A stretch of DNA of 47,993 bases, from NCBI GenBank assembly GCA_016929115.1, contig JAFGJL010000020.1, positions 1 to 47,993 on the forward strand, read 5' to 3'. Source of the DNA: Candidatus Omnitrophota bacterium (lineage in GTDB: Bacteria; Omnitrophota; Gorgyraeia; 2-01-FULL-45-10). Shown here in pieces: positions 3,859 through 22,715 of this stretch; the first letter of the stretch is position 1, and every line of letters begins with the position of its first letter. A model generated the notes under the pieces. The model had not been told where the DNA came from, did no database searches, and saw only the letters and a program-made list of their open reading frames with translations. The position numbers and the translations under genes were made by a program.

Positions 3859-4341
3859 TTATGTTCTGATATCAGGATAGGCGGCGACCAGCTCTTTTAT
3901 GCAAGAGCGCTCTTCCATCACAAGCTGCTTCACATGCATCCTTCGCCAGCTGTCCGTAAAAAAGTCCTCGAAAGCGCGATAGAAATCTATCTTTTTCCAC
4001 TCCTGCCCGATGGCATATTTTACGATATCTTCTTCGCTGGAATCGGCAAGCGGCGGGTCCAGGAAAATATTACGGCGTTTCAATTCCCCTTCAAAAAAAT
4101 CGAGTGACTCCCTGTCAAAAAACAGGATCCTCCATTCCGATAATGTCTTCTCTATTAATTGCGCATGATGGAAAGCTATACGGGCCAATTTGCGGCACAG
4201 GTCCTTAGCTTTAGGATCCAGGACCTTTTCGGCAAGTTCGACGTAAAAGCCTTCTACGCGCTTTTCCAGGATAAGGCCCACCTTAAAGATGTGCCTCAAG
4301 CGAACCTTGCCGGTACAAAAGATATTGTTATCAGAAAACAT
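3859..4341 (-). CDS. Rubrerythrin/ferritin-like protein, paralogue A
   Basis: 160 residues, all helical by composition, related to the protein at 21938-22399. The two share KVLDP-AKAL, LRHIF-VGL, a DFY-RAFE segment, DSWRRM and LVAAYP. The layout suggests a ferritin-like four-helix bundle, with E-x-FY in helix 1 and QE-x-x-x-DFYRAFE in helix 3. In this copy the ExxH motif of helix 2 has become AFHH and the last helix reads EERSC instead of ExxH, so a normal di-iron site is doubtful. The ATG at 4341 is chosen over an in-frame ATG at 4356, because the latter lies inside the spacer of a strong promoter. The mRNA is predicted to be leaderless. Confidence 0.65.
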   Translation of the reverse strand: MFSDNNIFCTGKVRLRHIFKVGLILEKRVEGFYVELAEKVLDPKAKDLCRKLARIAFHHAQLIEKTLSEWRILFFDRESLDFFEGELKRRNIFLDPPLADSSEEDIVKYAIGQEWKKIDFYRAFEDFFTDSWRRMHVKQLVMEERSCIKELVAAYPDIRT

Positions 4342-4347
4342 ACGACG

Positions 4348-4376
4348 AGTATACACTACATATTTCGTTAAGTCAA
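4348..4376 (-). promoter_or_regulatory. Strong sigma-70 promoter giving a leaderless transcript
   Basis: Minus strand: TTGACT (4371-4376), 17-nt spacer, TATACT (4348-4353), then only 6 nt before the ATG at 4341. The start of transcription should fall on or next to the start codon, leaving no room for a Shine-Dalgarno site. Confidence 0.75.
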
Positions 4377-8060: not shown

Positions 8061-11282
<3,222 letters not shown>

Positions 11283-11498: not shown

Positions 11499-11527
11499 AT
11501 TATAGATTATTATGAGGCATATGTCAA
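11499..11527 (-). promoter_or_regulatory. Perfect sigma-70 consensus promoter for the kinase operon
   Basis: TTGACA (11522-11527), exactly 17 nt, TATAAT (11499-11504) on the minus strand. The -35 box overlaps the stop codon of the antitoxin gene. Transcription should start near 11492, leaving a leader of about 210 nt before the kinase ATG. Confidence 0.88.
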
Positions 11528-12063
11528 TGGGGGATGCTTAGCTGGGAGTTGGGAAAATTAATTTCAACCGCCTTGTTTAATGAGCGCGCAATATTAGTAA
11601 GCGTAATCAAAGAGATATTCTCTCCGCCCTTTTCAATACGGGAGATCAATTGCTGGGAAACCCCTATTTTTTTGGCCAGTTTTTTTTGAGATAGCCCCTG
11701 CTCGCGCCTTATAGCAGCTATCTTCTTTCCTATAACTTCACAAAAAGGTTCCTTTGCAGGCGCCGCTTGCCTGAAAACCACCCCTTCTTTACGGTATCTA
11801 TCCGCCAGTTTTTCATAGATAGCCTGCCAGAAGATAATACGCGGCTCACTCCATTTGTCCTGGCGCATCTTTCTTTTGATCCCGGCCCAGTTCTTACAAA
11901 AGATAACGGGGTCGATATAGTTTTTAAATACTTCATTAGGTTCGTTTTTACGGGACAGGAGAAGGGCTGCCATAGTGAAAAAGGCTCCGGTGCCGGGCTT
12001 TTTCAAGGCCTTCTTCGCTTCGCTATCCGTTATCTTCCTGTCCCACAGCCAGTTGTCTTTCAT
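11524..12063 (-). CDS. XRE-family HTH protein, probable antitoxin of the AbiEii-type pair
   Basis: 179 residues. The C-terminal part (about 112-168) is a Cro/CI helix-turn-helix (IAAIRREQGLSQKKLAKKIG, then VSQQLISRIEKG). The N-terminal ~105 residues are a basic, aromatic-rich domain I do not recognise. The gene overlaps the nucleotidyltransferase gene by 4 nt (ATGA), the usual spacing of a toxin-antitoxin pair. It is the obvious candidate to bind the two 20-bp palindromes in front of the pair and repress it. In AbiE systems the antitoxin is a winged-helix AbiEi protein encoded first; here an XRE protein is encoded second, so this is a variant arrangement. Confidence 0.8.
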   Translation of the reverse strand: MKDNWLWDRKITDSEAKKALKKPGTGAFFTMAALLLSRKNEPNEVFKNYIDPVIFCKNWAGIKRKMRQDKWSEPRIIFWQAIYEKLADRYRKEGVVFRQAAPAKEPFCEVIGKKIAAIRREQGLSQKKLAKKIGVSQQLISRIEKGGENISLITLTNIARSLNKAVEINFPNSQLSIPH

Positions 12064-12773
12064 AATTCGCCTATCTCGTATTCAAGGATCTTATCGATCT
12101 CTTTCTTGAAATGCTTCTCCATCGCCTTGCAATCTATCGCCTTATCCGTATCAAGCATGAGGACGCCGTCCATCATCGCCATCCTGTTATATGTCCGGAA
12201 CCATTTGACAATGGCCTCCATTACCGTGCGGTTACAATGCTTGATGACGAATTTGGACAATGGTATGAACGTGTGCGACAAAAAATATACGTCATAGAAA
12301 TCTTTAGCGTCTGCCCTTCCTCCTATAAATTGATACCGTCCCGCTTCATCAAGGATCTTGATCATGCCGGCTAGCGCGTAAATCTTTCGCAGATATATAT
12401 CTTCAAGCGATAATATACGTACCCCGTCAACCATCTTCGTTTTCTTCAGAAGCTCTACGGTATCTTCCACAAAATCTATCTTCATGGCGTCGGACGGCGT
12501 AAAATGTATATTATACACCGCCATTTTCGCGGTCCTTTCTTCGAGAGCCTGGCCCTTAAGGCTGATCTTCTTTTTTAACGCGCTTTCAAGGTATTTCACT
12601 ATCCGCTCTATGTCTGAATAGACGAACTTGGATGTAAAAAAATCCAGGTCGACCGACAACCTGTGATGAAAATAGAACATGCTTAGCGCCGTCCCTCCGG
12701 CAAGGTAAAAAGAGCCTATCTTCCCCGAAAGGGCCGTCAATACTTCCTGTTGATACTTCTCTATCTTCTTCAT
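12060..12773 (-). CDS. AbiEii/DUF1814-type nucleotidyltransferase, probable toxin
   Basis: 237 residues. The nucleotidyltransferase signature is clear: FYLAGGTALSMFYFHHRLSV then DLDFFT, followed by KIDFVED as third acidic motif and the later LSLEDIYLRKIYALAG and ADAKDFYDVYFL segments typical of AbiEii/AbiGii toxins. Such toxins transfer nucleotides to tRNA or other targets and arrest growth. The ATG at 12773 is chosen; a longer frame to 12809 would lie inside the promoter. Only 7 nt separate the -10 box from the ATG, so the mRNA should be leaderless. The pair may serve phage defence or element maintenance. Confidence 0.87.
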   Translation of the reverse strand: MKKIEKYQQEVLTALSGKIGSFYLAGGTALSMFYFHHRLSVDLDFFTSKFVYSDIERIVKYLESALKKKISLKGQALEERTAKMAVYNIHFTPSDAMKIDFVEDTVELLKKTKMVDGVRILSLEDIYLRKIYALAGMIKILDEAGRYQFIGGRADAKDFYDVYFLSHTFIPLSKFVIKHCNRTVMEAIVKWFRTYNRMAMMDGVLMLDTDKAIDCKAMEKHFKKEIDKILEYEIGEL

Positions 12774-12780
12774 GCTATAA

Positions 12781-12809
12781 AGTATACAACATAAAAGTTG
12801 TATTGTCAA
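12781..12809 (-). promoter_or_regulatory. Sigma-70 promoter of the toxin-antitoxin pair
   Basis: TTGACA (12804-12809), 17-nt spacer, TATACT (12781-12786) on the minus strand, 7 nt before the toxin ATG. The whole spacer is filled by operator palindrome 1, so a bound regulator would block RNA polymerase. Confidence 0.85.
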
Positions 12810-12895: not shown

Positions 12896-13285
12896 TCAAT
12901 ATTGAATGCTATACCTGCTTCCGCCCATAATCCCGTCTATGATACCCAGCAGGGCATCCAACCTGAACGGCTTTGATATATACGATATGGCGCCCATTTC
13001 CATGCCTGCAGCTACATCTCCCATCCCTGAACGGGCGGTCAGCATTATGATAGGGATATTTCTGTACTCGTATTCATTCCTGAGCATGTTGCAGACCCTG
13101 TATCCATCTATCTTCGGCAGCATTATGTCGAGGATTATGAGGTCCGGTTTTTCCTTGCGGACCTTATCGATGGCCGCCTCGCCATCATACGCGGCATCCG
13201 CCTCATATCCGTGAGTTTCCAGATTGAGCTTCAGAAACTGCGCAAAGTCCTTCTCATCGTCAACCAGCAGTATCTTCTTAGACAT
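12896..13285 (-). CDS. Single-domain response regulator receiver
   Basis: 129 residues, receiver only: VDDEKDF acidic pair, Asp53 (LIILDIMLPKIDG), Thr in IMLTARSG, Lys in YISKPF. It lies 31 nt after the transglutaminase-like gene and so belongs to the operon controlled by the 11-bp repeat promoter at 13828-13881. It may close a feedback loop with the hybrid kinase and PhoB-type regulator encoded just upstream. The stop lies about 60 nt before the toxin-antitoxin operators. Confidence 0.92.
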   Translation of the reverse strand: MSKKILLVDDEKDFAQFLKLNLETHGYEADAAYDGEAAIDKVRKEKPDLIILDIMLPKIDGYRVCNMLRNEYEYRNIPIIMLTARSGMGDVAAGMEMGAISYISKPFRLDALLGIIDGIMGGSRYSIQY

Positions 13286-13316: not shown

Positions 13317-13799
13317 TTACCTCACGCCGGCTGTGTTTCCCGAATATTCCTTTCCCGCATCCAGAAAAGCTATCGATTCCATGTCCGGGTAGAACTTCCG
13401 GATAGCGCCCCTGATATCCCTCTGTCCTGTGCGCTGCAGCTCCTTATTGGAGAGGAAGCTGTAGGTCCCGTCTTTATCTTTCCATATGCATATCGCATGG
13501 CGGATGTTCAGGCCCTGGAACTTTATTATCACGACATTGCTATCTATGCCCAGATCCGACAGGACGAGGGAGGCGAGAGTGGCGAGATCGTCGCAATCCC
13601 CGCTTTTCAGCCGCAGGGTCTCGGAAGCCGATTGCGGCCTGTCGGGTATCTTTATCCTGTACTGGAATTCCGACGTAAACCATTCGGCTATCTGTTCGGG
13701 CGTCCTGACCGAGCTGGGAACCCCTCCCATGTCCTGGGCCAGGCAGGAACCCGCTAAAAACCACGCCGTCATTATGGTAACCAGCACTAACCTTTTCAT
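13317..13799 (-). CDS. Exported transglutaminase-like protein
   Basis: 160 residues. An N-terminal signal peptide (Lys-Arg, hydrophobic core to about residue 20, likely cleavage after SCLA) is followed by a transglutaminase/cysteine-peptidase core: catalytic Cys in LKSGDCDDLATLAS, His in IRHAICIWKD. Such domains act on peptides or peptidoglycan-linked proteins in the periplasm, but the substrate here is unknown. The ATG at 13799 has GAGGG about 8 nt upstream and is preceded by the PhoB-box-like promoter. The following gene is a receiver. Confidence 0.75.
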   Translation of the reverse strand: MKRLVLVTIMTAWFLAGSCLAQDMGGVPSSVRTPEQIAEWFTSEFQYRIKIPDRPQSASETLRLKSGDCDDLATLASLVLSDLGIDSNVVIIKFQGLNIRHAICIWKDKDGTYSFLSNKELQRTGQRDIRGAIRKFYPDMESIAFLDAGKEYSGNTAGVR

Positions 13800-13827: not shown

Positions 13828-13881
13828 AGCATACACTTCAGGCGTTAATTCGAGATTAGCTTCGGGTTAAGTTTCGGTTAA
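13828..13881 (-). promoter_or_regulatory. PhoB/OmpR-type promoter: four TTAAC-like repeats at 11-bp steps plus TATGCT
   Basis: Minus-strand order: TTAAC at 13877-13881, TTAAC at 13866-13870, CTAAT at 13855-13859 and TTAAC at 13844-13848, each exactly 11 bp apart. Ten nt later comes TATGCT (13828-13833) as -10; no -35 box is visible. This is the layout of a promoter activated by a PhoB/OmpR-family regulator bound where the -35 would be. An almost identical copy lies at 22662-22715. Confidence 0.8.
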
Positions 13882-13899
13882 TTCTTGGGGGCCTTTAAT

Positions 13900-13957
13900 A
13901 AAATAGGGACTGTCCCCAGCGTACCTATAGCGCATAGGCAGGGACTGTCCCTATTTT
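13900..13957. repeat. REPIN-like inverted pair of GGGAC-GTCCC palindromes
   Basis: Arms AAAATAGGGACTGTCCC (13900-13916) and GGGACTGTCCCTATTTT (13941-13957) form a 17-bp stem with one central mismatch and a 24-nt loop. Each arm contains its own near-palindrome. It lies 38 nt after the PhoB-type regulator gene and could also end that transcript, since the minus-strand arm ends in a U-rich stretch. A half copy occurs at 26391-26403, and a RAYT-type transposase is encoded at 22859. Confidence 0.75.
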
Positions 13958-13994
13958 TGGGATAAAAAGAATGTGCGGGAAAGTGCGTTGGAAT

Positions 13995-14690
13995 CTATTC
14001 TTCCGTCTCTTCTACCTTATATCCGGCTCCTGTCACGTTCTTGATGAACTTCTTCGCCTTTCCGAGCTTTTCCCTGAGGTGCCGGATATGGACATCGACG
14101 GTCCTGTCCGTCACGACCTTATCCTCCCCCCACAGGTAGTCGAGTATCTCGGTCCGCGAGAATACGCGCGTCTTCCTTGAGGCGAGCAGCTGCAATATGA
14201 GGAATTCGGCGTTCGTCAATTCCACCTTCTTGCCGTCTGCGAGGACCTCGCGGCTCTTCGGGTCTATCGTGACCTTGCCGCCTATGGTTATCCTGTCCTC
14301 TCCGCCTGCCGGCCCCAGCCTCCTCAGGACCGCCCGTATCCTGGCATCCAGCTCGTTCGCGGAAAAAGGCTTAACGATGTAATCGTCGGCCCCCATGTCC
14401 AGGCAGGATACCTTATCGGTATCGTCATGTTTCGCGGAGACTATTATTATAGGTATGGCGGAGAACCTCTCTTTTTCCTTCAGGGCCTTGCATATCTTGA
14501 ACCCGCTTGCGCCGGGCATCATGAGGTCCAGTAAAATAAGGTCGGGCTTCACCTTTCCGACCTTCTCGATGGCCTTCTCCCCGTCACCCTCGGTGTAGAC
14601 CTCATACTTACCGGTCTCCTCAAGGTTGGATTTAAGCAGCTTCGAGAAATCTCTTTCGTCATCGACGATCAGTATCTTCTTCTTGACCAT
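13995..14690 (-). CDS. OmpR/PhoB-family response regulator
   Basis: 231 residues: receiver (1-120, VDDERDF, Asp55 in LILLDLMMPG, Lys in YIVKPF) and a Trans_reg_C winged helix (about 135-228), visible as ELTNAEFLILQLLAS, the recognition-helix part DRTVDVHIRHLREKLG, and GAGYKV. It is the last gene of the pilin/PilB-REC/hybrid-kinase operon and the only DNA-binding regulator there. The 11-bp-step repeats at 13844-13881 and 22678-22715 are the natural target for this type of protein, which would activate the operons on either side of its own. Confidence 0.95.
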   Translation of the reverse strand: MVKKKILIVDDERDFSKLLKSNLEETGKYEVYTEGDGEKAIEKVGKVKPDLILLDLMMPGASGFKICKALKEKERFSAIPIIIVSAKHDDTDKVSCLDMGADDYIVKPFSANELDARIRAVLRRLGPAGGEDRITIGGKVTIDPKSREVLADGKKVELTNAEFLILQLLASRKTRVFSRTEILDYLWGEDKVVTDRTVDVHIRHLREKLGKAKKFIKNVTGAGYKVEETEE

Positions 14691-14704
14691 GACGCTCCCT
14701 TCGC

Positions 14705-15415
14705 TTAAAACCGCACGTTCAGACTCCGGGCCAGCACTTCGTTTATCTTGGACTTAAGGTCCGCGGCGTTGACCGGCTTGACGATATAATCCTCGTTGTA
14801 GAGGCCGAGCGCCCTCGCCTTGGCCTCGTCGGTCCCGACGGCGGTGAGCATGACGACCGGTACGGAAGCGGTCTCTGTGCGTTTTTTCAGGTCCTTCAGG
14901 ACCTCGAACCCGCTCATATCCGGCATCAGGATATCCAGAAGGATGAGGTGGGGCCTGGCGCGTATCGCGGCCGATAGGCCATCGGGGCCATTTGCCGCTA
15001 CGATGACCTTAAAATGGCCGCCGACCTCCAGGTTCTCCTTTACGAAGAAGCAGAAGTCCTTCTCGTCGTCGATTATCAATATCTTCTTTGCCGGCCCTTT
15101 CCCGCTGATACCCGTGATAGCGTTCAGCCATTCCGGTTTCGAATAGATAAGGAAGGCCGAGGCAGCGATCCCCAGGAATATGCCCGTAATATAGGTGAAG
15201 GCCTCGTCGGTAGTGGCGATGACGCCGGTGACCTTTTCCCTGATGATGAAAAGGCCCAGCACAATAACGGAGAGCGCGATGGTGAGCGCGAAGAGCCCAT
15301 GGCGGGAAGAGCCGAACTTTTTCATCAGCGGGTAGGCAATGGCCGTCCAGCCCACCGGCACAAGGAACGCTATAACCAGCTTCACGAATAAGCTTACATA
15401 TTCTTCTATCGGCAT
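14705..15415 (-). CDS. Membrane-anchored receiver protein (3 TM + REC)
   Basis: 236 residues. Three hydrophobic segments (about 7-30, 40-59, 75-92) precede a complete CheY-like receiver (about 110-232) with Asp161 (LILLDILMPDMSG) and Lys in YIVKPV. No kinase or output domain is present. A receiver bolted to the inner membrane is uncommon; it could sequester phosphate from the hybrid kinase at the membrane, or report phosphorylation to a membrane machine such as the pilus base. It lies 11 nt after the single receiver and 14 nt before the PhoB-type regulator. Confidence 0.85.
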   Translation of the reverse strand: MPIEEYVSLFVKLVIAFLVPVGWTAIAYPLMKKFGSSRHGLFALTIALSVIVLGLFIIREKVTGVIATTDEAFTYITGIFLGIAASAFLIYSKPEWLNAITGISGKGPAKKILIIDDEKDFCFFVKENLEVGGHFKVIVAANGPDGLSAAIRARPHLILLDILMPDMSGFEVLKDLKKRTETASVPVVMLTAVGTDEAKARALGLYNEDYIVKPVNAADLKSKINEVLARSLNVRF

Positions 15416-15426
15416 ATGCGCCCCCT

Positions 15427-15792
15427 TTATAAAAGATGCCTCTTTACCTTATCCAATAACTCTTCAAGGTCGAACGGCTTTTTAACATAATCGTTCACGT
15501 TGGCGGCCTTGATCGCTAAGCTGATATCCTCGCCGCTACTGGCGGAGAGCAAGATGATAGGCGTATCTTTCAACTCTTTGTCGGCCCTTATCTTCTTGCT
15601 TATCTCCAGCCCGTCCATGTCAGGCAGGCGGTAATCGAGCAATATGAGATCCGGCTTTCCGGCCTTTACGAGTTCGAGCGCTTCCCTGCCGGTAGCTGCA
15701 GATATGATCTCGTATCCCAGCTTCTTTAACCTGAAGACGACGACTTTAAGTATGTCCGGCTCGTCGTCGACGACTAATATGCGTTTCGCCAT
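15427..15792 (-). CDS. Single-domain response regulator receiver
   Basis: 121 residues: VVDDEPDI, Asp53 (LILLDYRLPDMDG), Ser-Ala-Ser in place of the usual Thr-Ala, Lys in YVKKPF. It begins 1 nt after the stop of the hybrid kinase and is clearly co-translated with it, so the kinase is its likely phosphate source. Confidence 0.92.
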   Translation of the reverse strand: MAKRILVVDDEPDILKVVVFRLKKLGYEIISAATGREALELVKAGKPDLILLDYRLPDMDGLEISKKIRADKELKDTPIILLSASSGEDISLAIKAANVNDYVKKPFDLEELLDKVKRHLL

Positions 15793-15793
15793 G

Positions 15794-18553
15794 TCACGCT
15801 CCTTGCACTTCCTGCTTCAACAACAAGCGCATCTTAGACAACAGGTCCTTCAGCTGGAACGGCTTTGAGATGGACGAAAGGGCTGAATCCTCCCGCTTGT
15901 CCTCCAGCTTGCCCAGCTCTTCGGCGTAGCCCGACATCGCCAGGATAGGTATCGTCGCAGTCTCTTTATTAGTCCTGAGCCGTCCTATTATCTCGTAGCC
16001 GTTTATGTCTTTCAGCCGCATATCCAATACCAATATATCCGGCTTATCCTTCCGGATCATGTCCATCGCGTTCAAGCCGCTTTCCGAACACGCCACTTCG
16101 TACCCCTCGCCTTCAAGTGATCCTTTATAGATATCGAGGATGTCCCTCTCATCATCCACCAAAAGGACCTTATATCTCGTCCTTACCGGTAATCTAAATT
16201 TAAAATCTGAGCCCTTACCGTATTCGGACTCGACCCATATCTCGCCCCCGTGCTCTTGGATGATCTTTTTGGATATCGCGAGCCCGAGGCCCGAGCTGCC
16301 TTTCCTTTCTACGTGAGCCGTCTCCAGCTGAGAGAAGCCCTGGAAAAGCTTCGGTATATCTTCCTTCTTTATGCCCATTCCCGTATCCCTGACCGAGACC
16401 TGTATGGAGTCACCGTCCCTGGCTGTTGTTACCACAACTCCGCCCTTATCGGTGAATTTAACGGCATTATTGATCATGTTTATGAGGACCTGCGTGATCT
16501 TGTCCTTATCGCAGATCATCTTTGGCAGGCCGGGCGCCAGGCGCGCCTCAAGCGATAAGTTTTTGTTTTTGGCGATAGGCAGCATGATCTTCACGACCTC
16601 GTCTATCAATGCGTTTACATCCGTCTCCTGCATACGGAAGGTCGTCCTGCCGGCCTCCAATCTCTGATAATCCAGGACATCGTTTATGAGACGGGACAAG
16701 CGGTCGACATTCCTCTTCGCCAGGTCCAGGAAGTCCCTCTGGTCGTCATTTATCCCGCCCGCCGAACCGTCCAGGACTATGCCGATGCCCTCCTTTATGG
16801 CCGTCATAGGGGTCCTTAGCTCATGAGAGACCATAGAGACGAAATGGCCCTTAACCTCCATCGCCTCCTTAAGCTTTGCTTCCATCCTTTTATGCTCGGT
16901 TATATCCCGGACCGTCGCCTGTAAGATCTGCTTACCCTCGAGTTCCATGCGGGTCAACAGGACGGTAGCAAAGAAATCCTCTCCGTTCAGGCGCTTATGC
17001 GTCCACTCAAAGAAGTTGAACCCTTTCTCCATCGCCGTCTCGATCATCCTCTTGGCCTTGGCGGAAGAAAGCATTCCGTCTGGCTGGTGTTCGGGGGACA
17101 GCTGCCAGGGCCCCATGGAGGTGAACTCTTTTTCGTCTTTCGCGCCAAATAGCTCGATCGTAGCGGGGTTGCCGGCTGTGAAACGCCAGTCCGGGGGCTC
17201 AAGGGTCATGATAGCGTCACGCGAGGATGTGTAGAGGGTTTTATATTTTTCCTCGCTCTGAATAAGGGCCTGTTCCAGGCCCTTGCGCTGCGCGATCTCT
17301 TCGTTAAGTCTATCGATCGATGTCGTGCTGCTCCTGAGGTTTTCCGTCATCTTGTTAAACGCGTCGGCCAGGCCCTCAAGCTCATCGCCAGTCTTTATCT
17401 CTGCCGAGTAATCCAGCTCCCCCTTGCCGATATGTTCTGTGGCTTCATGAAGTTTCTTTATAGGTTTTACGAATATGCCGCCAAAAATAAACGCTACGGG
17501 GAATAATATCGCGATAGCGATGCCTGAGCTCAGGAGCAGCTTGCTAAATAGCTTATTTAGCGGCAGAAAGACATCATCGACATCTTCATCTATAAATACC
17601 CTCCAGACGATCCCCTCGTTCAACAGAAAGGAATTATTAACGACAGCAAACGATACGAACATATTTTTTTTGTGGCCATGAGGTTTTTTTAATATTCCCC
17701 ACTTTTTTGGATCGGCCACCAGCCGCTCATATTCCTTCTCGCCGCATAATCTCTCGCTCAAAGGTTTTATTCCGGCATGGAAGACGATAAGACCCTTATT
17801 ATCAACCAAAACAGCATGGCCTGTCCTGCCCAGATCAAAATCCATCATAGGCGCGAACAAAACCTCAACCCTCAGGACCGCCTTACACACGCCTATCACT
17901 TCCCCCTTTTTATCCCTTATGGGGACCGCTACCGGCAACGACATTATGCCGGATGATTCATCGTATTCGACATTATCGATATAAACGGCTCCCTTGCCGC
18001 AGTTATAAGCCTCCTGCCACCACCCTTCGTCCGCCTGATAAAAGTCGCTGGTTTTGCCTGACGCCGCTACCAGCCCACCCCACTTATCGGTCGTGAATAT
18101 CTCGGCTATGCTCTTATCGTTTGATGTGTATTGCCTCAGCCTTTGCGCGCTCCTGTTCTGCAGGCACTGAGCAATTAAATCGCTGTCCGGCTTGGCCTCA
18201 GCCCAATTTTTGTCCATCTCTGAAAAATACTCTTTTATGTAGTCCCCATCTTTGTCTTTATACCTTGTTTCGCCTTCCAATACGGCTTCGGCATATATTG
18301 GATTCGCTGCGTGTGTGGTTACATTTTCTATAGCCTTTTCCAATAATCCCGAGACGTTGAACGCCAGATTTTCCGCCATCTTTGAATAATCATTCCCTAT
18401 GGTGTTGAGGAAAAGCCTGTAATTAAAGAAATACCCGGCACCAACGCCGATAAACATGATTATAAACGTCGTGAAACAGATGAAAAGCGTGATCTTACGC
18501 CTTATCCCTGTTTTGCGACTTGTTGGCCGAGGTTTTCTTGGAGTAATTTTCAT
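15794..18553 (-). CDS. Hybrid histidine kinase: Cache-HAMP-PAS-HisKA-HATPase-REC
   Basis: 919 residues. TM1 (about 21-43), a large extracytoplasmic dCache-like sensor (about 45-335, including WWQEAY and PVAVPIRDKKGEVIGV), TM2 (about 338-362), HAMP (about 363-415), PAS (about 435-553), HisKA with His577 in SHELRTP, HATPase_c with DTGMGI and GLGLAISKK, and a C-terminal receiver with Asp844 (ILVLDMRLKDINGY). Cache domains usually bind small molecules such as amino acids or organic acids. The kinase would feed the receiver, membrane receiver and PhoB-type regulator that follow, and perhaps the receiver on the PilB ATPase, which is in the same operon. Confidence 0.95.
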   Translation of the reverse strand: MKITPRKPRPTSRKTGIRRKITLFICFTTFIIMFIGVGAGYFFNYRLFLNTIGNDYSKMAENLAFNVSGLLEKAIENVTTHAANPIYAEAVLEGETRYKDKDGDYIKEYFSEMDKNWAEAKPDSDLIAQCLQNRSAQRLRQYTSNDKSIAEIFTTDKWGGLVAASGKTSDFYQADEGWWQEAYNCGKGAVYIDNVEYDESSGIMSLPVAVPIRDKKGEVIGVCKAVLRVEVLFAPMMDFDLGRTGHAVLVDNKGLIVFHAGIKPLSERLCGEKEYERLVADPKKWGILKKPHGHKKNMFVSFAVVNNSFLLNEGIVWRVFIDEDVDDVFLPLNKLFSKLLLSSGIAIAILFPVAFIFGGIFVKPIKKLHEATEHIGKGELDYSAEIKTGDELEGLADAFNKMTENLRSSTTSIDRLNEEIAQRKGLEQALIQSEEKYKTLYTSSRDAIMTLEPPDWRFTAGNPATIELFGAKDEKEFTSMGPWQLSPEHQPDGMLSSAKAKRMIETAMEKGFNFFEWTHKRLNGEDFFATVLLTRMELEGKQILQATVRDITEHKRMEAKLKEAMEVKGHFVSMVSHELRTPMTAIKEGIGIVLDGSAGGINDDQRDFLDLAKRNVDRLSRLINDVLDYQRLEAGRTTFRMQETDVNALIDEVVKIMLPIAKNKNLSLEARLAPGLPKMICDKDKITQVLINMINNAVKFTDKGGVVVTTARDGDSIQVSVRDTGMGIKKEDIPKLFQGFSQLETAHVERKGSSGLGLAISKKIIQEHGGEIWVESEYGKGSDFKFRLPVRTRYKVLLVDDERDILDIYKGSLEGEGYEVACSESGLNAMDMIRKDKPDILVLDMRLKDINGYEIIGRLRTNKETATIPILAMSGYAEELGKLEDKREDSALSSISKPFQLKDLLSKMRLLLKQEVQGA

Positions 18554-18572
18554 TTTGTGCCCTTTGCCCTGC

Positions 18573-19130
18573 TTAATAGGACTGATACCTTTCTATGGCA
18601 GGGGGCCCGCCCCTGACGTCGCACCATATCTCAGATACATCTCCGGCATGCTTTTTCGGGTCAGGGCAGCAGAATATCTTCCTGCCGCCTGCTTCTTTCA
18701 TGATATATGCCTCGCCAGTCGCCGGGCATGTATACGGCTTTGCGTCTTTCCTGTCCCGGTAGAGCTCTTCCATGGACACGGGAAAGGTCTTGTACTTCGC
18801 GTAATAGTTATCCATGGCCTTCCGTATATCCCAGAGGCGGCCTATGCACTCTTCTATCTTATTATCGGTAACAAACCTGCGGCCGATAGCCCAGTACACC
18901 TTCTTTTCGAATACGCCGGACCCTTGCATAAACCTGACTGAAAAAAATATGACCGCTCCGACGCCGGCTGCGAATAACAGCGCCCTTAAGGCAAAAGACG
19001 CGCCTCCGGCCAGCGCCTCTGAGCGGCGCGCCTTCTCTTTTTGCCGCGCTTTCGATTCCTCGCGGGCCTCATAGTCCGAAAGTATCTTCTTGAGCGACTC
19101 TTCCCTGTCGATATTATTTTCCGGTCCCAC
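18573..19130 (-). CDS. Single-TM protein with pseudopilin-like C-terminal domain
   Basis: 185 residues. A charged coiled-coil-like N-terminus (about 8-40) leads to one membrane segment (about 46-66) and a periplasmic part that resembles the globular end of minor pilins: IRKAMDNYYAKYKTFPVSM, then a YTCPATGEAY / IFCCPDPKKHAGD motif with paired cysteines. It lacks a type III prepilin signal (no G-F-T-L-x-E), so it is not processed like a pilin. It overlaps the PilB-REC gene by 17 nt and precedes the hybrid kinase by 19 nt, suggesting a membrane adaptor between pilus and signalling. Confidence 0.65.
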   Translation of the reverse strand: MGPENNIDREESLKKILSDYEAREESKARQKEKARRSEALAGGASFALRALLFAAGVGAVIFFSVRFMQGSGVFEKKVYWAIGRRFVTDNKIEECIGRLWDIRKAMDNYYAKYKTFPVSMEELYRDRKDAKPYTCPATGEAYIMKEAGGRKIFCCPDPKKHAGDVSEIWCDVRGGPPAIERYQSY

Positions 19131-21282
19131 TCTTCTGGGCCTCTCTCCTTAACAGCATCTTTATCCTTGCCAGGAGCTTATCCTTGTCGAAGGGCTTGGT
19201 CATATAGTCGTCCGCGCCCGCGTCAAGCCCTTCCAGCTCGCCCTCCTTATCCTTCCTGGCCGTCAGCATAAGAATAGGGACGGTAGCCGTCTCCAGCCGT
19301 GACCTCAGCATCTTGGTCGCGTCAAAGCCGCTTAAGATGGGCATCATGACGTCCATCACTATCAGGTCCGGCCTGTCGCGGAACGCGAACTCGACCGCCT
19401 CTTTGCCGTTCCTCGCCATGATGACCTCGTAGCCGGCGCTATTCAGGCGCATGCCGAGGACTTTCAGGATATCCTCTTCGTCGTCAGCGACCAGTATCTT
19501 TATAGATCCGGGAGAGGCTGCGGGCGGCGGGGCGGCCGGCTCGGCGGACGGTGCCGGTGCGGCGATGGCCTCTTTTGGAGGAGCCTCCTTGCCGATGCCT
19601 GCCACCTTGGCCACCTCCTCCAGCGTCGTTATGCCCAGCATCGCCTTTTCGATGCCGGCCTCGGCAAGAGAGCGGAACCCGTCTTTCTTCGCCTCTTCGA
19701 GGATCTCCCCTTCGCTCGCTTTGCGCGTGATGAGCTCCCTGATCTTATCGGTTATCTTCAGAAGTTCTATTATCGCGACCCTATTGAAATAACCGGTGAA
19801 GGCGCATTTTTCGCACCCCTTACCCTTATAGAATTTTTTTGTCTCCCGGCTCCCGATCAGCCCGGCAAAATCGTCCAGAAGCTTCTTGTCGGGGACATAT
19901 TCTTCTTTGCATTGCGGGCAGATGACCCTCACAAGCCGCTGGGCGATGATAACTATGAGGGATGACGCGATAAGGTAGGGCTCGAGGCCTATATCCATGA
20001 GCCGGGTTATCGTCGCGACGGCATTGTTGGTGTGGAGCGTGGAAAATACCAGATGCCCCGTCTGGGAGGACCTGAACGCTATATCGGCCGTCTCCCTGTC
20101 CCTTATCTCGCCGACCAGTATCACGTTGGGGTCCTGTCGTAATATGCTGCGAAGCCCCGTAGCGAACGTAACGTCCTTGAAAGGGTTCGTCTGGATCTGG
20201 TTCAGGCCATCTATCAGGTATTCGATAGGGTCCTCTATGGTGATGATATTCTTCTTTTCGCTTTTTATATGATTGAGGGTGGCATACAATGTGGAGGTCT
20301 TGCCTGAGCCTGTGGGGCCTGTCACCAGTATCATGCCCTGCGGCCGGACTATCGCCTCCTTATATATCTGCAGTTCCTTGGGCGGAAAGCCTATCTGTTC
20401 GAGCCTAAGCCCGGCCTTGCCGGTCCCCAATAACCGCAGGACCACCTTCTCCCCGTGGAAGGCCGGTATTATCGATATCCTCAGGTCGGTCTTTACGCCA
20501 TTGGCCGTTATCCTGGTCCTGCCGTCCTGCGGCTTCCTGATCTCGGCTATATCCAGGTCCGCCATTATCTTTATGCGCGCCACGAGCCGCGACTGCATCT
20601 TTTTGGGGACCTTCATGATGTTCTTGAGGTCCCCGTCGATCCTGTAGCGGACCTCCACAAAATCTTCCTGCGGCTCGACATGGATATCGCTCGCCCTGGA
20701 CTTGATGGCATCGCTCAATATGAGGTTGATGAGCTTTACGATCGGCGATCCGCCCTCTTTCAGCTCATCGATGCCTACGGCGTGGCCGACGGTCTCACTC
20801 TCCCTGGCCAAGCCTACCTTGGTATCGTCCACTATATTCTTGAGAAGATCGTAGAGCGCATCGTCCGACTGGTATAACTTCGCGATCCATTCGCTTATCT
20901 GGCTCTTGGGGCTCAGGATGCGCTTGACCGGCAGGCCGGCAATGAAACCTATATCATCGATAGCAATCATGTCCTGGGGGTCGCTCATGGCCAATACGAG
21001 GCTGCCGCCCTCTATCCGTAAGGGGCATACGCCGTAGCGCCGCGCCTTTTCGTAAGGGATTTTCTTTACCGCCTCGGGTTCTGTCCGCTCCTTATCGAGG
21101 TCCGCGATCGGCATATTGAACGTCTTCGACGCCGTCTTGATCACGTCCTCTTCCTTGACAAACCCCATCTCTATGAGCAGTTCCTGGATGGGCCTCTTCG
21201 CGCCTGCCTGCTTCTGGCGGGCATCATCAATCTGTTCGTTCGTTACCAACCCTTCTTTTACAAGCGCAGCTATCAGGTTCAT
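19114..21282 (-). CDS. PilB/GspE-type assembly ATPase fused to a C-terminal receiver
   Basis: 722 residues. N-terminal GspE_N/MshEN-type region (about 1-135), T2SS/T4P ATPase core (about 170-550) with Walker A GPTGSGKT (322-329), Asp box TIEDPIEY (348-355), Walker B LVGEIRD (389-395), His box HLVFSTLHTNN, and zinc cysteines CPQC (455-458) and CEKC (490-493). An Ala/Pro-rich linker (about 565-593) leads to a complete receiver with Asp644 (LIVMDVMMPILSG). The ATPase drives pilin or pseudopilin polymerisation; the receiver implies direct control by phosphorylation. It follows the pilin gene by 11 nt. PilM/N/O/C partners are absent from the window. Confidence 0.95.
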   Translation of the reverse strand: MNLIAALVKEGLVTNEQIDDARQKQAGAKRPIQELLIEMGFVKEEDVIKTASKTFNMPIADLDKERTEPEAVKKIPYEKARRYGVCPLRIEGGSLVLAMSDPQDMIAIDDIGFIAGLPVKRILSPKSQISEWIAKLYQSDDALYDLLKNIVDDTKVGLARESETVGHAVGIDELKEGGSPIVKLINLILSDAIKSRASDIHVEPQEDFVEVRYRIDGDLKNIMKVPKKMQSRLVARIKIMADLDIAEIRKPQDGRTRITANGVKTDLRISIIPAFHGEKVVLRLLGTGKAGLRLEQIGFPPKELQIYKEAIVRPQGMILVTGPTGSGKTSTLYATLNHIKSEKKNIITIEDPIEYLIDGLNQIQTNPFKDVTFATGLRSILRQDPNVILVGEIRDRETADIAFRSSQTGHLVFSTLHTNNAVATITRLMDIGLEPYLIASSLIVIIAQRLVRVICPQCKEEYVPDKKLLDDFAGLIGSRETKKFYKGKGCEKCAFTGYFNRVAIIELLKITDKIRELITRKASEGEILEEAKKDGFRSLAEAGIEKAMLGITTLEEVAKVAGIGKEAPPKEAIAAPAPSAEPAAPPPAASPGSIKILVADDEEDILKVLGMRLNSAGYEVIMARNGKEAVEFAFRDRPDLIVMDVMMPILSGFDATKMLRSRLETATVPILMLTARKDKEGELEGLDAGADDYMTKPFDKDKLLARIKMLLRREAQKSGTGK

Positions 21283-21293
21283 GATCTAATGTC

Positions 21294-21746
21294 CTATTTT
21301 TTCGATTTTTGCTCTTTTTTGGCGTCCGAAGCGGCTTTCGCCTCCTCGCTCTTTCCCTTGGATTTATCGGTCTCGACCGCCGGCTCTTCTTCTGCCGGTT
21401 CCGCCTGAGTATGGACGGAGCAGCCAAGCAGGAGCTCGTAGCTTGAGTCGACCTGGCCGGAAGCCTCCCACGCATAAACGCCCCCGGAAGGACATGAGGG
21501 TATGGATTTAAGGTAGCCGCTGTCCACCAGGTCCTGCAGCACGGCCGAATGGGTGCCCTTGTCGAAAAAATATCTCTGTTCGGATTGCTCGATGATATTG
21601 CGGTTTTGAAGGCAGGCGTTCCTGGAAGCCGTCTCTTTTGACTTGAAGAACCTGGGCAAGGCAAGGCCGGCAAATATCATGGCGAGTATCGCCGCGACAG
21701 TGATCATCTCGACTATCGTAAACCCGTTTCTCTCTTTATGGTACAT
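21294..21746 (-). CDS. Type IV pilin / pseudopilin
   Basis: 150 residues with a classic prepilin start: short basic leader MYHKERNG, cleavage before FTIVEM (Glu at +5), and a hydrophobic helix to about residue 30. The middle is a small globular domain (ACLQNRNIIEQSEQRYFFDK, GYLKSIPSCPSGG). The last ~40 residues are a Glu/Lys-rich low-complexity tail. First gene of the pilus/phosphorelay operon. Ribosome binding site AAGG 8 nt upstream; the transcript carries the structured leader at 21769-21887. Confidence 0.9.
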   Translation of the reverse strand: MYHKERNGFTIVEMITVAAILAMIFAGLALPRFFKSKETASRNACLQNRNIIEQSEQRYFFDKGTHSAVLQDLVDSGYLKSIPSCPSGGVYAWEASGQVDSSYELLLGCSVHTQAEPAEEEPAVETDKSKGKSEEAKAASDAKKEQKSKK

Positions 21747-21768
21747 TGCGTTTACCTTTTTCGCCTAT

Positions 21769-21887
21769 AAAAACAAAGCCGCCATCCGATTTACTGCAGG
21801 ATGGCGGCAAAATTGAATTTCAGAAAACACGTCCTTCAGAAAATCGTGGTATCTCTGAAATAGCCTTATGTCGAACTTAAGCTACTC
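21769..21887 (-). promoter_or_regulatory. Structured leader of the pilin operon with intrinsic terminator
   Basis: After a predicted start near 21887 the RNA can form nested helices TTTCAGA/TCTGAAA (21854-21860 with 21818-21824) and CACG/CGTG (21845-21848 with 21828-21831). A second copy of TTTTCTGAA (21835-21843) can compete for the same partner. Then comes a 10-bp GC hairpin GCCGCCATCC/GGATGGCGGC (21778-21808) followed by UUUGUUUUU, an intrinsic terminator 22 nt before the pilin ATG. This looks like a riboswitch or attenuator, but it does not match the c-di-GMP-I consensus I know. The terminator could also close the upstream operon. Confidence 0.6.
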
Positions 21888-21893
21888 GTATTG

Positions 21894-21921
21894 ATTATAC
21901 CTTCCTCTTTTAAAAAAGCAA
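21894..21921 (-). promoter_or_regulatory. Promoter of the pilin/PilB-REC operon
   Basis: Minus strand TATAAT (21894-21899), 16-nt spacer, weak -35 TTGCTT (21916-21921). The strong -10 and position before the structured leader support it; the weak -35 leaves room for an activator. Confidence 0.55.
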
Positions 21922-21937
21922 TTTTTTATTTCATCTC

Positions 21938-22399
21938 TTACATGCTGACCTGAGGATAGGCGGCGACGAGGTCCCTCATGCAACCCCGCTCCTCGGTCAC
22001 CAGCTGCTGGATGTACATCCTTCGCCAGCTATCCGAGAAAGCATTTTCAAAAGCGCGGTAGAAATCGACCATTTCCCTCTCTTGATGTATGGCATATTCG
22101 GCTATATCCTCTTCAGTGGCATCCGCAAGCGGAGGATCCTTAAAAATGCCACGGCGCTTCAATTCCTGGCCGTAAAAATCCATGGACTCTTTGTTGAGCG
22201 ATAAGGACTTCCACCCCGACAATATTGCCTCGATCAACTGCACATGGCGGCGCTCGAGCCGGGCCAGGTTGCGGCTCAGGGCTTTTGCGGCCGGGTCCAG
22301 GACTTTCTCAGCGAGAGCATTGTAAAAGGCCTCTCCCTGCTTTCCTATCATCAGGCCCACTTCAAAGATATGTCTTAAATGAACTCTGCCGTTAAACAT
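21938..22399 (-). CDS. Rubrerythrin/ferritin-like protein, paralogue B
   Basis: 153 residues, paralogue of the protein at 3859-4341. Helix 1 holds EAFYNALAEKVLD and helix 2 ExxH (LERRHVQLIEA), so the first half of a di-iron site is intact. Helix 3 has QEREMVDFYRAFE, while the last helix ends EERGC where ExxH would be expected. A function in iron or peroxide handling is inferred from the fold only. The ATG at 22399 is preferred over GTG at 22408, since GGAGG sits 8 nt before the ATG and directly abuts the GTG. It is the second gene of the operon driven by the 11-bp repeat promoter at 22662-22715. Confidence 0.68.
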   Translation of the reverse strand: MFNGRVHLRHIFEVGLMIGKQGEAFYNALAEKVLDPAAKALSRNLARLERRHVQLIEAILSGWKSLSLNKESMDFYGQELKRRGIFKDPPLADATEEDIAEYAIHQEREMVDFYRAFENAFSDSWRRMYIQQLVTEERGCMRDLVAAYPQVSM

Positions 22400-22414
22400 C
22401 TTACTCACCTCCCA

Positions 22415-22633
22415 TTAGAAACTCTTGTAGATACCCCAGCAAAAACTGTAGACCTTGATCGCCAGTGAAGCGATGGGATTGGAATACGATTCTTTCATTG
22501 CGTCTGTAATGGCCCCGTCGAAATCACGGAATGTGCTGTGGTTGACCCTGTTGGTGACCTCTCCCAATACCACCATGGAGCAGAATGCGGCAACGAAAAA
22601 GCCTGTTATAAAACCTGTCATTAATTTTCTCAT
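22415..22633 (-). CDS. Small single-TM or exported protein
   Basis: 72 residues. A basic start (MRKLM) and a hydrophobic stretch (about 6-25) form a signal peptide or anchor; the remaining ~45 residues are mixed polar with aromatic residues (YSFCWGIYKSF) at the end. No family recognised. The ATG at 22633 has a good GGGGAGGGG ribosome binding site, and the PhoB-box-like promoter at 22662-22715 lies just upstream, so it is one of the two likely regulon members besides the transglutaminase-like protein. Confidence 0.65.
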   Translation of the reverse strand: MRKLMTGFITGFFVAAFCSMVVLGEVTNRVNHSTFRDFDGAITDAMKESYSNPIASLAIKVYSFCWGIYKSF

Positions 22634-22661
22634 TTTTAGCCCCTCCCCTTTATCCACTACA

Positions 22662-22715
22662 AGCATACCTTATCGTGATTAATTCGAGATTAACTCCCTG
22701 TTAAGTTTCAGTTAA
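22662..22715 (-). promoter_or_regulatory. PhoB/OmpR-type promoter, second copy
   Basis: Minus-strand TTAAC (22711-22715), TTAAC (22700-22704), TTAAT (22689-22693), TTAAT (22678-22682), 11 bp apart, then 10 nt and TATGCT (22662-22667). About 65 bp including CCACTACAAGCATA (plus strand, downstream part) are nearly the same as at 13822-13887, while the genes behind are unrelated. Confidence 0.82.

Follow-up and report, generated by a model that had tools for sequence, protein, structure and literature searches.

Two four-box promoters on either side of a PhoB-type regulator gene: a candidate private regulon in an Omnitrophota bacterium

Results

We analysed two promoters located on either side of a PhoB-like response regulator gene in Candidatus Omnitrophota bacterium, in a window of 47,993 nucleotides (the whole stretch of DNA examined: positions 1 to 47,993 of contig JAFGJL010000020.1, assembly GCA_016929115.1). 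The host genome (1,504,170 bases) is called G000; other G-numbers are genomes of the same class and C-numbers are contigs. The regulator, both promoters and the genes assigned to them lie on the minus strand. Promoter A (13844..13881) carries the repeats TTAAC/TTAAC/CTAAT/TTAAC at 11-bp steps, followed after 10 nt by the -10 TATGCT (13828..13833); from 13881 to 13844 the site reads TTAAC-cgaaac-TTAAC-ccgaag-CTAAT-ctcgaa-TTAAC. Promoter B (22678..22715) carries TTAAC/TTAAC/TTAAT/TTAAT at the same steps and the same -10 (22662..22667) at the same distance, and reads TTAAC-tgaaac-TTAAC-agggag-TTAAT-ctcgaa-TTAAT from 22715 to 22678. Both sites were thus found as a first-pass annotation of this DNA had described them, and no sigma-70 -35/-10 pair was recognised at either, again in agreement with it. 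The distance to the -10 is constant in all aligned sites. The boxes end 10 nt before the -10 at A, at B and in the aligned relatives, with no -35, which is the PhoB-type layout; the annotation was right that the repeats occupy the place of a -35 as with PhoB, an arrangement already known and not novel.

Promoter A precedes A1 (13317..13799; PF01841/PF04473 above cut-off), a transglutaminase-like protein with a hydrophobic N-terminus, and A2 (12896..13285; PF00072), a single receiver domain. For A1 we took the ATG of 13799 as the start, since the listed one, at 13832, overlaps the -10. Promoter B precedes B1 (22415..22633), a 72-aa protein with a hydrophobic N-terminus and no family match, and B2 (21938..22408; PF02915, E 7.4e-5), a ferritin-like protein of the rubrerythrin type. 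The genes behind the two promoters are unrelated, as had been noted.

The regulator encoded between the promoters (13995..14690) combines a receiver (PF00072) with a winged helix (Trans_reg_C, PF00486), both above cut-off, and keeps D10, D11, D55 and K107, as expected of an OmpR/PhoB-family member with its phospho-acceptor Asp. It is the only Trans_reg_C protein among the scanned proteins of the window, which bears out its description as the sole such regulator there; the genome holds three, the remaining two on other contigs. One of these, on contig C47, is grouped with a kinase, a porin, pstS, pstC, pstA, pstB and phoU. The gene context of PhoB proper (PhoR-type kinase, pst, phoU, phosphate porin) was found with this C47 regulator and not with that of the window, and the two proteins fall into separate clades. 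Against the PhoB equivalog TIGR02154 the window regulator scores 238.3 bits, under the cut-off of 296.2; this cut-off is not decisive in this phylum, because the pst-linked C47 protein also fails it (249.4 bits).

The four-box pattern had no match in 100 dinucleotide shuffles of the window, and A and B were the sole matching places in the whole genome at up to three mismatches, while the reversed control gave 0. Site B also matches on its opposite strand, because the repeats are partly self-complementary. Apart from A, B and a site on contig C56 described below, no further regulon member was found in the host genome, whether up to three mismatches or three boxes were allowed. Scanning the host contigs with the full A/B consensus, spacers included, gave no match, the spacers being unconserved.

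We then compared A with B. They had been called nearly identical over about 65 bp; this holds for the -10 (6/6), the bases after it (8/8) and largely for the boxes (18/20), but is too strong for the whole, since identity is 49/62 (79%), with 14/18 in the spacers and 3/10 in the linker between the last box and the -10. The shared spacer positions and the eight post-10 bases indicate that B probably arose from A, or the reverse. The same similarities could be read as a recently duplicated segment that binds no protein. This fits poorly with a linker that has diverged while the boxes hardly have. Other genera, moreover, combine these boxes, their steps and their distance from the -10 with different spacers. 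We regard this reading as extremely improbable.

We assessed the association of the site with the regulator across the class, in 384 genomes. The exact pattern with its -10 occurs at 10 sites in 9 genomes, with 0 in the reversed control; at eight of these sites the locus also contains an orthologous regulator, and the remaining two (G338 and G373) are upstream of a porin. A regulator profile set apart 21 close relatives, at 286-414 bits, from regulators of the PhoB type, which score 264 bits at most. In at least 12 genomes from several families, the four-box promoter is found 3' of the orthologous regulator and before a target gene: about 30-240 nt past the regulator stop in G000, G015 (of the same family and class as the host), G044, G134, G102, G201:C6, G260, G264, G107 and G212, about 520 nt past it in G228, and past one intervening gene in G248. 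The loci of G107, G212, G264 and G228 were reached through the regulator rather than through the exact pattern, and their layout is identical. In the 11 site-bearing loci tested by shuffling the 3' region, none of 200 dinucleotide shuffles reached the observed score; behind PhoB-type regulators used as negatives, the best scores were 9-14 of 20 where the DNA could be read. Over 12 sites, information per column is 1.76 bits in the boxes and 1.50 in the -10, compared with 0.56 in the spacers and 0.40 in the linker. Had the repeats been lost in relatives that keep the regulator, the proposed link would have fallen; it survived this test, with 12 orthologues carrying the promoter 3' of the regulator. 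Conservation extends to the eight post-10 bases, with the consensus TTWAGTGR at about 1.1 bits per column; they are possibly a discriminator or a start-site element.

Target genes vary between genomes. A transglutaminase-like gene stands behind the promoter in G000 (A), G260, G102, G228 and G107, and in G248 after a VanZ-like gene. Ferritin-like proteins follow it in G015 and G000 (B), and small exported proteins in G134 and G044. In G212 the gene behind it encodes a FecR-domain protein, and in G201 the genes are uncharacterised. Export was called from hydrophobic N-termini, without a signal-peptide program. The first-pass annotation had proposed an envelope or pilus regulon with its own regulator. 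Conservation upholds the linkage to the regulator, and the pilus part is not borne out: the pilin and pilus-ATPase genes between A and B have no four-box site and are located behind a terminator-like hairpin that ends operon B ahead of the pilin gene (21778..21808; -20.7 kcal/mol, z -3.7, then a T-rich tail). "Mostly exported proteins" fits the regulon better.

Several observations weigh against assigning A and B to this regulator. Residue 220 of the window regulator is a Thr instead of the wing Arg of its relatives and of E. coli PhoB (R219, a minor-groove contact). The site of G126 is degraded and precedes a paralogous regulator, and no site was seen in the DNA read for G140 (two copies) and G201:C7. 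TTAAC-like matching helped to choose most sites, so the information content of the boxes is partly built in. Finally, the genome is 90% complete and extra sites were possibly missed.

Since the cell has a PhoB of its own, we examined whether A and B could be ordinary Pho boxes of the C47 regulator, both operons being phosphate-starvation genes and the nearby regulator incidental. Public genomes contain at least 116 stretches in which TTAAC arrays have a -10 at a distance of 10 nt, many of them, in many phyla and as judged by eye, upstream of PstS-, PhoU-, porin- or phosphatase-like genes, and the sites of G338 and G373 precede a porin. The host genome's own porin/pst promoter and its second pstS promoter are written differently. 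That of the C47 porin reads TTTAC/TTCAC/ATCAC/GTAAC, 10 nt, TATACT, with the same geometry as A and B; a second pstS promoter has TTCGC/TTCAC/GCCAC/GTAAC, and TTCAC also occurs in the porin promoters of G126, G201, G212 and G085, four relatives with the same PhoB clade. In addition, phosphate genes are absent from both A and B, and the A/B-type site follows orthologues of the window regulator from genome to genome. Control by the C47 PhoB is therefore unlikely. Because the clade of the window regulator goes with TTAAC while the cell's own pst-linked promoters are of the TTCAC type, phosphate control is unlikely to reach the small regulon.

The difference between the boxes is paralleled in the proteins. 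In the tree, one branch (92/97) has the site-bearing regulators to one side, and another (100/100) the TTCAC PhoBs. Recognition helices read DVHIRH or DVHIKN on the TTAAC side versus DTHVKR in the TTCAC PhoBs. Base contacts in E. coli PhoB are made by four residues, T194, V197, R201 and R219 (PMC3264566). The last recognition-helix position aligns with R201 and is His (His204) in the window regulator and Arg in the C47 PhoB, and the first variable one aligns with V197 and is Val200 in the window regulator and Thr in the C47 PhoB. In the Arg group, 13 of 20 boxes have C as base 3, as against 1 of 16 in the porin promoters of the His/Asn group plus G248. Of 24 regulators from many phyla that are located no more than 8 kb from TTAAC arrays, none has Arg at the R201 position, a count that stands without a background Arg frequency for comparison. 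As the Arg group is one clade, this link between base 3 and Arg is a correlation with a single origin and not proof. The close relatives G035, G249, G224, G039 and G094 form a sister clade in which a kinase gene directly follows the regulator; G035 and G249 have boxes of the TTAAC/TTAAC/TTTAT/TTAAC type before a porin, and the array of G224 is mixed.

The genome's third Trans_reg_C regulator, on contig C56, has a CusR/CopR-like helix and could also be considered as the protein that binds A and B, since the only other site with three boxes and a -10 in the genome is 3' of the C56 kinase gene. Its recognition helix, NVIDVYISYLR, differs from RTVDVHIRHLR in the window regulator, the C56 boxes all end in T, and in many genomes it is with orthologues of the window regulator that A/B-type sites are linked; we judge binding by the C56 protein very improbable. 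The C56 site is itself a third promoter (G000:C56:16209-16251; L038 near 11199-11260), with TTAAT/CTAAT/TTAAT, 10 nt and TATACT, located 3' of a regulator-kinase pair and before a gene for an exported protein. It may be usual in this genome for an activator promoter to stand just 3' of a regulator locus.

The genes around the regulator encode further signalling proteins: a membrane-anchored receiver (14705..15415; PF00072 at residues 112-224, N-terminal hydrophobic segments), a single receiver domain (15427..15792) and a hybrid kinase with dCache, HAMP, PAS, HisKA, HATPase and receiver domains (15794..18553), a candidate sensor; the latter two were assigned by domain scan. Upstream of the hybrid kinase are a pilus-type ATPase and a pilin. 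The kinase-regulator neighbourhood is kept in G102, where the kinase adjoining the regulator is 44% identical over 440 aa to that of the window, indicating that kinase, receiver, regulator, site and target are kept as a unit across two families.

Among the targets, A1 has a Cys69 and a His101 that are invariant among its homologues; the Cys, in a GDC motif, and a His are invariant in all the transglutaminase-like proteins behind the promoter and in one paralogue. Some A1 homologues match PF06035, the family of BTLCP/LapG-type transglutaminase-like cysteine proteinases, in which Cys and His are likewise conserved; these matches are weak and under the cut-off, whereas the best are to PF04473/PF01841, and any enzymatic activity of A1 is putative. 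In B2 the di-iron ligands are incomplete: the full Glu/ExxH set is absent, with EERGC at the second ExxH and the first lost in paralogues, as read by eye from the paralogue alignment. A paralogue of B2 (window 3859-4356, 59-61% identical) adjoins a PAS-GGDEF-HD protein. No four-box site was found at this paralogue, at the ferritin-like paralogue on contig C11 or at the transglutaminase paralogue on C11. The ferritin-like domain of G015 forms the N-terminal part of an open frame of 701 aa.

Other elements lie close to promoter A. Between the regulator stop and the promoter there is a strong inverted repeat (window 13900-13957, AAAATAGGGACAGTCCC arms, -31.7 kcal/mol), which may be a REP-like element or a terminator; a similar GGGACAGTCCC element is located upstream of the transglutaminase paralogue on C11. 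The promoter-A operon is followed directly by an AbiEii-type nucleotidyltransferase and a helix-turn-helix protein (window 11524-12809), which resemble a toxin-antitoxin pair.

Discussion

Conservation supports well, at the level of sequence, a private two-promoter regulon of a PhoB-type activator. We consider it very probable that A and B are activator-dependent promoters of the 13995-14690 regulator and form a small regulon separate from phosphate control. Binding, activation, the kinase link, the signal and the physiological role are what we infer beyond this. In the proposed mechanism, the regulator would be phosphorylated, probably via the neighbouring hybrid dCache kinase and the receivers, and would then occupy the four TTAAC-like boxes as a pair of tandem dimers in head-to-tail order. 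Positioned just upstream of the -10, it would substitute for the absent -35 contact and recruit RNA polymerase, so that promoter A would yield the exported transglutaminase-like protein and a receiver, and promoter B the small membrane protein and the ferritin-like protein.

The geometry, the PhoB mechanism and TTAAC-type Pho boxes are already known elsewhere. Bacillus subtilis PhoP, a phosphate regulator, has boxes of TTAACA-type repeats at steps of about 11 bp; our literature search returned nothing on TTAACA with PhoP and direct repeats. PHO boxes are built of 11-nt direct repeat units whose consensus differs between species (PMC4415409), and those of E. coli PhoB sit 10 bp upstream of the -10 (PMC1906773). 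The system described here has in common with E. coli PhoB a winged-helix response regulator and direct repeats at 11-nt steps that replace the -35 and end 10 bp from the -10 (PMC1906773, PMC4415409). It differs by its box (TTAAC, not CTGTCAT), present four times, its non-phosphate targets, the His at the R201 position and a score below the PhoB equivalog cut-off. The PHO boxes of cyanobacterial SphR, CTTAACCT in three or more repeats, combine 8-bp repeats and 3-bp linkers into 11-bp steps and so share with A and B the TTAAC core and the step (PMC1906773). Unlike SphR, which controls phosphate genes, the present regulator has other targets, and a separate PhoB in the same cell appears to read TTCAC. 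What appears new is the regulon, its conserved adjacency to the regulator and two apparent codes in one cell; the literature searched does not describe this regulon, and held no relevant work on Omnitrophota response regulators.

A broader scheme can be put forward only tentatively, and we lean slightly against it as a whole. Omnitrophota would have two PhoB-type regulators of identical geometry with insulated codes, TTAAC and TTCAC, split mainly by the Arg201-equivalent residue (His/Asn versus Arg). The sister lineage of the TTAAC clade stands beside a porin; the TTAAC clade itself would have been given a new role, with a private regulon that lies directly 3' of its own gene and encodes mostly exported proteins.

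For a phylum that is hardly known outside metagenomes, a regulator, its operator and its targets could here be assigned from conservation rather than from resemblance. Paralogous PhoB-type regulators that share one cell and one geometry but have different boxes make code change and the avoidance of cross-talk testable, and a dCache kinase pathway gains the transglutaminase-like protein as a candidate output.

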